From Chloroflexota bacterium (lineage in GTDB: Bacteria; Chloroflexota; UBA11872; VXOZ01): a DNA stretch of 40,249 bases. A model generated the notes under the pieces. The model was not told where the DNA came from. It ran no database searches and saw nothing but the letters and a program-made list of their open reading frames with translations. Below, piece by piece: positions 1,751 to 25,965 of this stretch. A program made the translations under genes and the position numbers. The stretch covers positions 1 to 40,249 of the forward strand of contig JAPOQA010000033.1 of the NCBI GenBank assembly GCA_026710945.1. Reading direction: 5' to 3'. Each line of letters starts with the position of its first letter. Positions within the stretch are counted from its first letter, which is position 1.

Positions 1751-2434
1751 ATGCAACGACGATCTGTATGCTCGCTTCTGCTCAGCGGCGCCTCCGTAGC
1801 CGCACTGGCGGCGTGCGGCGGCGGTTCAACATTGTTAAGCGATGAGGAGCAGGAGACGGCGAGCTCTACCCAAGAGGCCGCATCGCAAACGCAGGCAGAG
1901 CCAACCGCGGCTCCGGCGGAAGCGCAACCGACGGCCGAGGCCCCGAAGCAGGCGGAGGCTGCGCCAACAGCAGCACCCACGCTCGACATGCCTTATCTTG
2001 GCAAGGCCCCCGAGATAACTCTTACTGGCTGGTTCAATTCAGAGCCCATCACTATGGCAAGTCTGGAGGGCAAGGCCGCTGCCATGATTGTGTTTTGGAC
2101 GTATACCTGACCGGTCTGCCGCAGCGAAATCCCCAGTTTGGTGGATCTCTTCAATACCTACCACGATGACCGCTTCAAGCTGATCTCCGTGCACTTTCCG
2201 CACGCCGGATCTTCCCGAGACATCAGCGGCATTAAGGAGCGGGCCGACGCCCTCGGCGTCAACTATCCGGTGGTTGTAGACAACGATGAGGTGCTTTGGA
2301 ACGCCTATGGCACCCGCACGTGGCCGGCATTCTACGGCATCGATCGGCAGGGCAACATACGCTTTGCAAAGTTCGGCGGCGGCAATTTCGAATTAGTGGT
2401 TGATGCCGTGAAGCAACTCAAGGAGTTGGGCTAA
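1751..2434 (+). CDS. Selenocysteine-containing TlpA/thioredoxin-like lipoprotein (copy 1)
   Basis: A 227-residue product if the in-frame TGA at 2108-2110 is read as selenocysteine (residue 120). The N-terminus is an RR-containing lipoprotein leader, MQRRSVC...LAAC, with the lipid-carrying Cys before GGGS. An Ala/Glu/Pro/Thr-rich linker of about 50 residues follows. The thioredoxin fold then runs LGKAPEITL, GWFNSEPITMASLEGK, MIVFWTYT-U-PVC. The TGA therefore sits exactly where the first Cys of the redox CxxC motif belongs. The frame continues without break through PVCRSEIP, FKLISVHFPHAG, YPVVVDNDEVLWNAYGTRTWPAFYGID (two pieces, with the cis-Pro of TWP) and IRFAKFGGG to a TAA. The predicted role is an extracytoplasmic thiol/selenol oxidoreductase or peroxidase-like protein, probably reduced by the nearby CcdA. 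A nonsense mutation is unlikely because the paralogue at 2723-3391 has the identical TGA and both halves stay conserved. Other genes here, such as dnaE, use TGA as stop, so the code is not generally reassigned. Confidence 0.85.
2129..2146 (+). promoter_or_regulatory. Candidate bacterial SECIS hairpin for copy 1
   Basis: Eighteen bases downstream of the TGA, inside the coding sequence, ATCC (2129-2132) pairs with GGAT (2143-2146). After a bulged U (2142), CCA (2133-2135) pairs with TGG (2139-2141), leaving the loop GUU (2136-2138). The loop G lies 26 bases after the UGA, inside the window known for bacterial SECIS elements, and a G early in the apical loop is the known consensus. Below the stem, G2126-C2149 and A2127-U2148 could extend it past a mismatch. 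The fold was done by eye and no energy was computed. SelB binding is inferred. Confidence 0.5.
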
Positions 2435-2494
2435 GCGGCAGTGTCGCTATCCGCTTGAACTAGATTCCGGCAAAGCTGTCGCAGAGACACGAAT

Positions 2495-2530
2495 ACAGTA
2501 CCCAGTGTTCACATGAACACTGGGTACTGT
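2495..2530 (+). terminator. Perfect 17-bp palindrome, likely terminator of the + strand selenoprotein gene
   Basis: Arms 2495-2511 and 2514-2530 are perfectly complementary with only CA between them. In RNA the innermost pairs would open to form the loop. TTTCTATT follows on the + strand, a modest U-rich tail. It lies 60 bases past the TAA of the upstream gene and before the convergent gene, where a terminator is expected. Confidence 0.65.
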
Positions 2531-2645
2531 TTCTATTGAAGCAGAAGCTCCTCGGTCGTTCGAGGACGCACATTGCAGGCGCAGGTCACCGCTTTTAAGA
2601 GGCAGCGGCAAGAATCCGGCATGCGGGCTTGTCGCACATTTAAAA

Positions 2646-2686
2646 CAAGCCGTCTGCGGTGTAATGAGCACACCGCAGACGGCTTG
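2646..2686 (-). terminator. Perfect 17-bp hairpin, likely terminator of the - strand selenoprotein gene
   Basis: Arms CAAGCCGTCTGCGGTGT (2646-2662) and its exact complement (2670-2686) enclose a 7-base loop. Read on the minus strand, the stem is followed by TTTTA, as in a Rho-independent terminator. It lies just beyond the stop codon of the gene at 2723-3391. The + strand side also has TTGTTT, so it may work in both directions. Confidence 0.75.
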
Positions 2687-2722
2687 CTTGTTTCGACAGA
2701 TGTCTAAGAATCAGCAGGTACG

Positions 2723-3391
2723 CTAGCCCGCAGCCTTGAGCTTTTCAATCACTTCAAGGATGGAGTCGATACCGGCGCCGACCTGCTTGAAGCGGATGTC
2801 ACCTTGTTTATCGACTGCGTAGGCAACCGGCCAGGCATTGTTGCCGTAGTCGTTCCAGGCTGACAGGTCGTTATCGATCGCGACCGGGAAATTGACATTG
2901 AGTTCCGCGGACTTCTCGGCAATGACGCTCACGTCCGTGGATGCGCCCAAGGCCGGGAAGTGGATGCTGATGAGCTTGAAACTGTCGTCAACGAGCGTGT
3001 TCTGGATATCCACCCAACTGGGGATTTCGCCGCGGCAGACCGGTCAGGTGTAGGTCCAGAAGACAATTAAGGCAGAGGCCTTGCCTTCCAAGCTAGACAA
3101 CGTAATGGCATCGGAATTGAGCCATTCCGTGAGCGTAATCTCCGGCGCCTTGCCAAGGTTGGGCAGGTCGAGTTCGGGCGCTGCCGTCGGCTCAGGCTCC
3201 GCCTTCGCTTCGGGCTCAGCCGTCGGTTGCGCTTCCTTGGGAGCGGCGGTTGGCTCCACCTTGGCCTCTTGCGCGGTTTCGGCTGGCTTCTCCTCCTCAG
3301 TGTCGAGCAGCGTTGAGCCGCCGCCGCACGCCGCCAGTGCGGCTACGGAGGCGCCGCTGAACAGCAATGCGCATACAGAACGTCGTCGCAT
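2723..3391 (-). CDS. Selenocysteine-containing TlpA/thioredoxin-like lipoprotein (copy 2)
   Basis: A paralogue of the convergent gene at 1751-2434, of 222 residues with TGA (complement of 3044-3046) read as selenocysteine 116. The leader MRRRSVC...LAACGGGST is almost identical to copy 1 and carries a lipobox. A Glu/Ala/Pro/Thr linker follows, then the thioredoxin fold with LGKAPEITLTEWLNS, SALIVFWTYT-U-PVCRGEIP, FKLISIHFPALGAS, FPVAIDNDLSAWNDYG and the cis-Pro segment NNAWPVAYAVDKQG. A strong GGGAGGAGA ribosome-binding site precedes the ATG. The gene lies 227 bases downstream of ccdA on the same strand, so co-transcription is possible. The proteins diverge clearly after the TGA, yet both keep the frame, the UxxC motif and the C-terminal half. 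That is selection on a full-length product, not decay. Confidence 0.85.
3008..3025 (-). promoter_or_regulatory. Candidate bacterial SECIS hairpin for copy 2
   Basis: On the minus strand the same position after the TGA folds as in copy 1. ATCC pairs with GGAT, a bulged U follows, then CC/GG closes an AGUUG loop with its G 26 bases after the UGA. G-C and A-U pairs below the stem are also kept across one mismatch. Part of the conservation could reflect the shared peptide EIPS, so covariation in more homologues would be needed to prove RNA-level selection. Confidence 0.5.
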
Positions 3392-3618: not shown

Positions 3619-4374
3619 CTAACGCTCAAATGCCAAGATTTCTAATGAGAAAAAGCCGAGAACTCCGGACAGCATTGCCAGGAAATTCGTTGCAACAGCA
3701 ATTCCCATCAAGATCAAGAAGACTCCGCTTGTGCGCTCGACTACGAGCATGTGGGACTTGAGCCAGTTCATGAGGGATGCTGCGCGCTCGACGGCGGCGG
3801 CCATCGCGAGAAACGGGATGCCCATTCCCAATGCGTAGATTGCCAGCAAGATTCCGCCGCGGGCCACCGTGTCAGCGCCGGATGCCTGGAGCAAAATGGC
3901 GCCCAGAATCGGCCCCACGCACGGCGTCCAGCCGGTGCCAAAGACCAGGCCGATCAGGAAAGACGTGATCGGACCGGTTTTCTCCGTATCTATGCGGCCC
4001 AGCGGTGTATTGCGGAGCGAGACTTCCCGTTGCAAGATCTGCTGGAGCCACGGAATACGCAGGAATCCCAGAAAGCTAAGCCCAAAGATAACGAGAAGCG
4101 CGCCGCCGACAAGCCGCATCGTGGGAAGACCTTGCTGAAAGGCAAGGCCAACAAACGTGATAGCAATGCCGAGGGCGACGAAGATAGTGCCGAAGCCCAA
4201 TATAAAGGCCAACGCGTTGATGAGAACGGCCCGTTGGGCAGACTTTTCGTGGCGGACCGCGTTGACGTGGCGACCACCGAGATAGACAAGATATGCCGGT
4301 ACCAGGGGGAGAAAACAGGGCGATAAAAATGAGAGAATGCCGGCGCCAAATGCAATACCAACGTCAACAAGCAT
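3619..4374 (-). CDS. ccdA: CcdA-type thiol-disulfide electron carrier membrane protein
   Basis: A polytopic membrane protein of 251 residues with about six hydrophobic segments. It carries reducing equivalents from cytoplasmic thioredoxin to extracytoplasmic thiol proteins. The two redox cysteines sit in the diagnostic contexts ILSFLSPCFLPLVPAYL near the N-terminus and GTGWTPCVGPILGAI in the second half. I chose the ATG at 4374 (MLVDVGIAFGAG), with AAGGG upstream, over a start 14 codons earlier, because the first membrane segment starts directly after it. The gene lies upstream of, and on the same strand as, a selenocysteine thioredoxin-like lipoprotein. No cytochrome c maturation genes are visible, so the local partner is more likely the two selenoproteins than CcmG/ResA-type haem ligation. 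Confidence 0.9.
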   Translation of the reverse strand: MLVDVGIAFGAGILSFLSPCFLPLVPAYLVYLGGRHVNAVRHEKSAQRAVLINALAFILGFGTIFVALGIAITFVGLAFQQGLPTMRLVGGALLVIFGLSFLGFLRIPWLQQILQREVSLRNTPLGRIDTEKTGPITSFLIGLVFGTGWTPCVGPILGAILLQASGADTVARGGILLAIYALGMGIPFLAMAAAVERAASLMNWLKSHMLVVERTSGVFLILMGIAVATNFLAMLSGVLGFFSLEILAFER

Positions 4375-4535
4375 AGGATAAGCCCTTACCACGCAACGCA
4401 CTACTCCCCTATCCATGCCCAGTATAACGAAAGTAGAGATGTTTTTTTGTAACCGCGCCTACAATTGGGACGGTTTTGCCAAAGTCAGTCTGGCAGTTTG
4501 CGTATCTGCGCTCTCGGATACGCCAGTAGGTGGCT

Positions 4536-24477: not shown

Positions 24478-25965
24478 ATGAAAGTACTTTACATCGACAT
24501 TGATTCCCTGCGCCGTGATCACTTGGGCTGCTACGGGTACGAGCGGCCGACCACGCCGAACCTAGACCGGCTGGCGTGGGAAGGCGCGCGCTTCACCAAC
24601 ATGTATGCCGCCGATACGCCGTGTGTGCCGGCGCGGGCGAGCATCTTCACCGGACGTTGGGGTATCAAGACTGGACTGCTCACTCACGGCGAGCGGGCGC
24701 AATCCATTGGCGACTACGGGCGGCCGGCAGGCGAATTGGACACGAAGCCCTGGGAACAAGACGCCCGCTACGCCGGACCGACGTATCCTCCCATCGGCAG
24801 TCGAGCGCCGCAGGTGCAGCAGTATCTGGCTGAGCAGAAAGGGGAGGCAGGCTTGCGTACGGCGGTGGTCTCGACGTTTGGCGATCAGGCGTCTTGGTTC
24901 CGCATGGGCTGGAATGCGTACTACCGTCCGCAGTGGCATTTGGGGCACAGCAACGTGGAAGCGCCGGAGATTACGGCGCATGCACTGGCTTGGCTGCTAG
25001 ACCACGCGCAGGACGATTTCTTCCTCTACGTCCACTACTGGGACCCGCACCAATCGTACAAAGCACCGCAAGCGTATGTGGACAAGATGCTTACCTACCC
25101 GCCGCCTGACTGGCCGTCCGACGAGCGGATCAAAGATGACGCCGAGCGCTACGCTCACATGCCGAACTCCGCCGGTTCGCACCGCATCCGGGGCAAGGAA
25201 GATTTCGATTACTGGATGGCGATGTACGATGCCGAGATCGCCTATTGCGACGAGTACGTCGGGAGGCTGCTGGATGCGTTAAAGGTAGTGGGTATTCTGG
25301 ATGATACCCTCATCATTGCCGCTACCGATCACGGCGAGAATCAGGGCGAACACAGCGTTTACGGCGACCACTGGGGCGTCTACGAGACCGATGCCCACAT
25401 CTGGATGCTCGCGCGCTGGCCGCAGGGCGGGATTCGGCCGGGCACGGTAGTAGATGCGGCGGGCTATACGCTGGATCTTGGCCCGACCCTATGCGCGGTT
25501 GCCGATTTGGAAACACCGGCACGCTGGCAGGGGCGCTCGCTCCTGGAGATGATGCGGGGCGAGCCGGAACCGCAGCCGCGACGCGACTACGTGTACTTGG
25601 AGCACGGCCTATGGTCGGCACAGCGGGCGATTCGCACCATCGACGCCGCGGACGGGCGCGACTGGAAGCTCATCAAGAGCTACCACGGCGGTTTGATGAA
25701 CTGGCCGCTGACTCAGCTCTTTGATCTGGCGAATAATCCGCGTGAGGAAGCCAACGTGGCGGATGCCAACCCCGCAGTCACGCGGGACCTGGAATACCGC
25801 CTCTGGCAGTGGGAAGAGGAGCAACTCCAGGGCTGGCCTGATCCGCTGAAGAAGGTGGCCCAAGAGGGCCCGCAAACGGTGCTCAGCGCTCTGGAAAACA
25901 TGCAAGAGGGCCCATTCCAGTGGCCGAACCCGGCAGGCCACGTGGTACCGCACAAGCGGCCATAA
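24478..25965 (+). CDS. Sulfatase (arylsulfatase type, formylglycine-dependent)
   Basis: A 495-residue sulfate-ester hydrolase of the alkaline phosphatase superfamily. The N-terminal metal site is VLYIDIDSLRRDHLGCYGY. The activation motif is CVPARASIFTGR, with Cys49 in C-x-P-x-R to be converted to formylglycine. HYWDPHQSYKAP and the second metal site IIAATDHGENQGEHSVYGDH follow. No signal peptide is visible, so it probably acts in the cytoplasm on imported sulfated substrates. Together with the fucosidase at the start of the window this could serve sulfated fucan degradation, but they are 23 kb apart. The required formylglycine-generating enzyme is not in this window. Confidence 0.94.
   Translation: MKVLYIDIDSLRRDHLGCYGYERPTTPNLDRLAWEGARFTNMYAADTPCVPARASIFTGRWGIKTGLLTHGERAQSIGDYGRPAGELDTKPWEQDARYAGPTYPPIGSRAPQVQQYLAEQKGEAGLRTAVVSTFGDQASWFRMGWNAYYRPQWHLGHSNVEAPEITAHALAWLLDHAQDDFFLYVHYWDPHQSYKAPQAYVDKMLTYPPPDWPSDERIKDDAERYAHMPNSAGSHRIRGKEDFDYWMAMYDAEIAYCDEYVGRLLDALKVVGILDDTLIIAATDHGENQGEHSVYGDHWGVYETDAHIWMLARWPQGGIRPGTVVDAAGYTLDLGPTLCAVADLETPARWQGRSLLEMMRGEPEPQPRRDYVYLEHGLWSAQRAIRTIDAADGRDWKLIKSYHGGLMNWPLTQLFDLANNPREEANVADANPAVTRDLEYRLWQWEEEQLQGWPDPLKKVAQEGPQTVLSALENMQEGPFQWPNPAGHVVPHKRP

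Follow-up and report, generated by a model that had tools for sequence, protein, structure and literature searches.

We propose that two convergent paralogous genes, here called A and B, in the stretch of Chloroflexota DNA that was analysed (40,249 nt; hereafter the window) encode selenocysteine (Sec)-containing lipoproteins which would act as CcdA-fed reductases, the substrate being left open. The probability of this explanation as a whole is put at about 0.65. Its selenoprotein part alone, namely that the UGA of both genes is read as Sec, is nearly certain as judged from the sequences, and the part in which CcdA feeds the two proteins and electrons flow in the reducing direction would be fairly likely. 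The two genes, their Sec codons and the repeats lying between them are as follows.

1751..2434, + strand: gene A, selenoprotein thioredoxin-like lipoprotein of 227 aa with the motif FWTYT-U-PVC (translation with TGA as Sec; PF00578, 5e-15; TGA kept in 5/5 genomes)
2108..2110, + strand: Sec codon UGA of gene A, codon 120 (translation, codon alignment)
2495..2530, no strand: terminator-like perfect inverted repeat lying between genes A and B, with arms of 17 bp (repeat search)
2643..2689, no strand: a further terminator-like inverted repeat whose 20 nt arms are 95% complementary (repeat search)
2723..3391, - strand: gene B, paralogous selenoprotein lipoprotein of 222 aa with the motif FWTYT-U-PVC (translation; PF00578, 8e-11; TGA kept in 5/5 genomes)
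3044..3046, - strand: Sec codon UGA of gene B, codon 116 (translation, codon alignment)

The proteins encoded by genes A and B share 62% identity. Each gene contains one internal TGA, which stands for the first residue of a CxxC motif, and then runs on to a normal stop. The original prediction had reported this in-frame TGA at the first Cys of the motif in two paralogues and had expected standard gene calling to split both; the coordinates and frames were confirmed, and under the standard code each gene indeed falls into two ORFs, of 119 and 98 aa for gene A and of 115 and 96 aa for gene B. The window was scanned for in-frame TGA codons with at least 40 open codons on either side and a Cys nearby, and among the 23 candidates obtained a convincing thioredoxin context was found only in genes A and B. 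Elsewhere in the window, positions 1-110 at the contig end consist of homopolymer G/C runs, likely an assembly artefact, and the genes for an alpha-L-fucosidase and a sulfatase (208-1506 and 24478-25965) fit a glycan-degrading, host-associated lifestyle.

The source genome (3.52 Mb in 70 contigs, 98.4% complete) was searched for selA, selB, selD and tRNA-Sec (selC), which the original prediction had proposed to look for, and all four are present. The tRNA-Sec scored 67.1 bits, above the curated cut-off, and was called SeC(tca) by ARAGORN; selB, selA and selD scored 360, 559 and 380 bits, respectively, all above their curated cut-offs. The selD gene has a TGA Sec codon of its own, in a CAGU motif. 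TGA is also an ordinary stop in this organism, as the alpha-L-fucosidase gene next to gene A ends with it.

To the source genome we added five further genomes of the genus, four of which carry the pair. The pair, the gene order and both TGAs are kept in all five genus genomes with the locus (10/10 genes), and in the fifth further genome, a 69%-complete assembly, a third paralogue alone was seen. This third Sec paralogue (FWTYGUINC, lipobox LSAC) lies on contig C20 of the source genome (1387-1959 in the extracted locus), adjoins a leuS-like gene and has its TGA in 6/6 genus genomes. Altogether, TGA occupies alignment column 120 in 16/16 genes from six genomes (10 pair members and 6 third paralogues), and in the codon alignment this is the sole column with TGA throughout; therefore, neither chance nor sequencing error can account for it. 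The within-group dN/dS values after the TGA are 0.077 for gene A, 0.111 for gene B and 0.069 for the third paralogue, which are low and indicate that the downstream part is translated and under selection. A further likely selenoprotein, of the WASWUGC type and resembling NF041054, was observed in the same genome (C39:77950-78378). The named records of the relatives are Chloroflexota MAGs, and their isolate codes suggest that they are probably of marine sponge origin.

As the original prediction had anticipated for an alignment of homologues, the TGA column holds only U or C, and the two residues exchange within two genera. In one genus (g18), U is found in G112 and G376 and C in G331; in the other (g52), U is found in G336 and C in G147 and G238. 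A tree of 64 domains needs six Sec/Cys changes, of which well-supported branches make five or more unavoidable. In the tree, A and B form sister clades whose split is older than the species split, and the third paralogue is the nearest group to them. Of 40 genomes searched for selA, 38 have it; the other two (G029 and G309) show Cys forms alone among the matches found for the protein.

A hairpin resembling the bacterial SECIS (bSECIS) element is present downstream of the UGA in both genes.

2129..2146, + strand: hairpin resembling a bSECIS in gene A, AUCCCC-AGUUU-GG(U)GGAU, with G as the second loop base and lying 19-36 nt past the UGA (synonymous dip, Sec/Cys contrast)
3008..3025, - strand: hairpin resembling a bSECIS in gene B, AUCCCC-AGUUG-GG(U)GGAU (Sec/Cys contrast; compensatory basal-pair change in two relatives)

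The bacterial SECIS model comprises a loop of 3-9 nt, a stem of 4-16 bp, a G at loop position 1 or 2 and a spacing of 16-37 nt (PMC13188914). The hairpins of A and B agree with it, having the loops AGUUU and AGUUG with G at position 2, 24 nt past the UGA; in the third paralogue an identical stem carries the loop GGUCU. The energy criterion used was an MFE of -7.5 or below. When the flanks were included, constrained folds of A and B had energies between -8.2 and -14.8, with a different hairpin as the lowest-energy candidate of the window gene B; the hairpin alone in a 33-nt window, with a short stem of 6 bp, is weak, at about -7 to -8.7 kcal/mol and thus around the threshold. Synonymous divergence (pS) is about 0.45 over most of the gene and falls to 0.158 over codons +4 to +10 and to 0.058 over codons +7 to +13, the minimum coinciding with the position of the hairpin. 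A complete stem at the matching position was found in 20/23 Sec genes versus 2/42 Cys homologues, a contrast in which the stem was picked from the Sec genes, so that only the Cys genes test it independently; the exact six-pair stem occurs at 0.3% of random window positions. The remaining three Sec genes, which encode FWTFCUINC proteins, have another hairpin, visible by eye. These three long proteins, encoded by genomes from another family of the same class, are apparently selenoproteins, and the one that was checked has NHL repeats in an NHLRC2-like layout.

Covariation was also seen. The basal pair of the gene B stem changes from A-U to G-C on both sides in two species, whose identical rows were entered once in the count, and relatives from another family of the phylum have an equivalent, different stem (AUUCCUU-CGUUG-AAGGAAU), in which a U-A pair is exchanged for C-G. 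As this amounts to one pair in each set and most stem pairs never vary, the support from covariation is small, and it is the synonymous dip and the Sec/Cys contrast that carry the argument for the SECIS. The Cys gene of G147 (C19) keeps the whole stem and has lost the loop G; it is likely, from its sequence, to be a fossil of a recent change from Sec to Cys.

From these results, the UGA of both genes would be decoded as Sec by the genome's own SelA, SelB, SelD and tRNA-Sec at a SECIS hairpin about 19-36 nt downstream. That the TGAs are instead true stops, of decaying pseudogenes or two-piece genes, or that TGA has been reassigned in this organism, is hardly credible: TGA usually terminates translation and ORF calling with the standard code ends at it, but the codon is retained in 16/16 genes, separate assemblies agree, purifying selection past it is strong, synonymous constraint dips at the SECIS position, the Sec machinery is complete and the fucosidase gene next door uses TGA as its stop, so that sequencing error, pseudogenes and code reassignment are ruled out.

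The N-terminal part of both proteins is that of a lipoprotein, and the elements of gene A are located as follows.

1751..1816, + strand: signal peptide of gene A with lipobox LAAC, lipid Cys at residue 22 (lipobox in 10/10 pair members)
1817..1990, + strand: Ala/Pro/Glu/Thr-rich linker of gene A, about 58 aa, predicted disordered (composition; pLDDT below 50 over most of residues 1-72)

In all ten pair members, residues 19-22 read LAAC, in agreement with the lipobox pattern [LVI][ASTVI][GAS]C, and the linker after it is rich in Ala, Pro, Glu and Thr. We infer from the lipobox that both proteins are lipid-anchored. This is in line with the original prediction, which had described them as lipid-anchored with long linkers and had assigned them to an extracytoplasmic redox system as selenoproteins; the latter is supported by the Sec machinery and the U/C-only column, with the extracytoplasmic anchoring deduced from the lipobox. 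Export by the twin-arginine route is possible, as suggested by an RR-x-V start and the presence of tatC.

For the domain that follows the linker, A and B score above the gathering thresholds of PF00578 and PF08534. In the NCBIfam search no model reached its cut-off for either protein, and the best sub-threshold match was ResA. The predicted model of the domain has a pLDDT of about 87-97 (94-97 in most blocks), and in it the Sec lies immediately before a helix (residues 121-137); WP is invariant. The profile, the fold and the position of the motif at the helix start place both proteins in the TlpA/ResA/DipZ thioredoxin-like superfamily (PF00578/PF08534). The best solved match is the C-terminal domain of DipZ, both by fold (E 6e-15, rmsd 1.9) and by sequence (7e-37), and it is followed in the fold search by ResA and the pneumococcal lipoprotein Etrx2 (2yp6). 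Thus, the earlier description of the proteins as TlpA-like holds at the superfamily level, but the nearest solved structure is that of DipZ.

Beside gene B lies a gene that the original prediction had not mentioned.

3619..4416, - strand: ccdA (DsbD_TM), probable membrane electron carrier with two conserved Cys (SPC, WTPC) (PF02683, 4e-19; synteny)

In all genomes carrying the pair, ccdA is the immediate upstream neighbour of gene B; in the window it shares the strand of gene B, and gene A is on the opposite one. The order fucosidase-A-B-ccdA-prs-ddl is kept in 4/4 relatives compared, and the neighbours of the locus besides ccdA are unrelated housekeeping genes. The CcdA of the window matches the membrane half of a DipZ-type fusion (E 3e-12), and such fusions, consisting of DsbD_TM and a Trx domain, are present in the same phylum. 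The adjacent ccdA makes an electron route of the split-DipZ kind likely; taken together, the fusions in the phylum, the homology and position of CcdA and the kept gene order suggest that the pair is best read as a split, doubled DipZ. In the proposed route, the lipobox Cys would anchor each protein on the outside of the cytoplasmic membrane, and the disordered linker would carry a thioredoxin domain of the DipZ/TlpA type with the active site Sec-Pro-Val-Cys. CcdA would pass electrons from cytosolic thioredoxin to both Sec lipoproteins, whose Sec/Cys pair would then reduce oxidised extracytoplasmic partners. The fused CcdA domain in DipZ is thought to relay electrons likewise.

The main rival to this explanation is that the principal job of the pair is cytochrome c maturation, one or both proteins being CcmG-type apocytochrome c reductants fed by CcdA. 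Elsewhere, CcdA and proteins of the TlpA/ResA fold do serve cytochrome c maturation. It is the Ccm (System I) cluster of the genome (C41:11000-25000) that gives this possibility its weight, as the cluster encodes CcmB, CcmC, CcmE, CcmF and CcmH together with a CcmA-like ATPase, and a CcmG gene was not found there; the sub-threshold match to ResA points the same way. However, the locus of the pair is unlinked to the ccm cluster, Cys paralogues with the motifs FWATWCTPC and FFAPWCPHC in the genome could be the CcmG, and the nearest fold is DipZ and not CcmG, so we regard a main role in cytochrome c maturation as unlikely. ResB is absent from the genome, and a ResA/System II route, which would need this partner, is thus ruled out.

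It is more improbable still that A and B are extracytoplasmic selenol peroxidases of the AhpC/TSA-like kind, which would act on peroxide themselves and relay no electrons to protein disulfides. Sec serves well as a peroxidatic residue, and the Pfam assignments are AhpC-TSA (PF00578) and Redoxin (PF08534). Nevertheless, the motif is UxxC with both residues conserved, which is the thioredoxin/TlpA arrangement, and the top fold matches are DipZ, ResA and Etrx2 and not peroxiredoxins. True Prx selenoproteins have the motif TxxU (PMC13188914). Also unsupported is MsrAB as the substrate, as in pneumococcus, since MsrB is absent from the genome.

The reading of the pair as CcdA-fed Sec reductases can be compared with several known systems. 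DipZ, a CcdA-Trx fusion (PDB 2hyx/5cyy), has the same Trx-like domain and a CcdA-type membrane partner, but here CcdA and the Trx domain are encoded by separate genes, the Trx protein is doubled and is a lipoprotein, and Sec replaces the first active-site Cys. A and B also lack the C-terminal Thioredoxin_10 domain found in DipZ-type fusions; having neither the fusion nor this domain, they would work like DipZ without being members of that family. The nearest studied analogue is the Etrx1/Etrx2-CcdA system of Streptococcus pneumoniae, in which two paralogous surface lipoproteins of the thioredoxin fold are fed by CcdA (PMC3914529). Pneumococcus has two ccdA genes, its system is spread over two separate operons and SpMsrAB2 is known as a substrate (PMC3914529), whereas here there are one locus, one ccdA and no MsrB, and Sec is the first active-site residue. 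The ResA-like WAxxUGC selenoprotein NF041054 likewise has Sec in a ResA/TlpA fold, but its motif is UGC, and A and B score 26.9 and 33.6 bits against its 300-bit cut-off.

Selenoproteins of the UxxC Prx-like, Redoxin-like and TlpA/Trx-like kinds have already been catalogued (PMC13188914 Table 1, 2026; PMC2398784 Table 2, a marine survey of 2008). Compared by their table entries, they belong to the same Pfam families as A and B and have the same UxxC motif, so the novelty that the original prediction had seen in lipid-anchored TlpA-like selenoproteins was overrated. Neither table names a CcdA-linked convergent lipoprotein pair. None of the papers in the collection searched had both 'selenoprotein' and 'DipZ'; neither this nor the silence of the tables proves absence from the literature. 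Titles and abstracts on Chloroflexi selenoproteins and sponge symbionts contained nothing on the locus. The doubled, CcdA-linked, lipid-anchored arrangement is unusual within a known kind of UxxC selenoprotein.

More tentatively, with the odds slightly against it, the locus may be a split and doubled DipZ in which both Trx domains are Sec lipoproteins with different substrates, that is, a dedicated selenium-based reducing system of the outer face in a probable sponge-symbiont clade, not previously described as a system. With this finding, a lineage where standard ORF calling splits such genes gains a conserved pair of lipid-anchored Sec proteins and a third Sec paralogue, and in the wider family the exchange of Sec and Cys within single genera amounts to a clean natural experiment. 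The finding also connects thioredoxin-like selenoproteins of the UxxC type with the extracytoplasmic reducing route of CcdA and DipZ, and thereby gives them a testable function.
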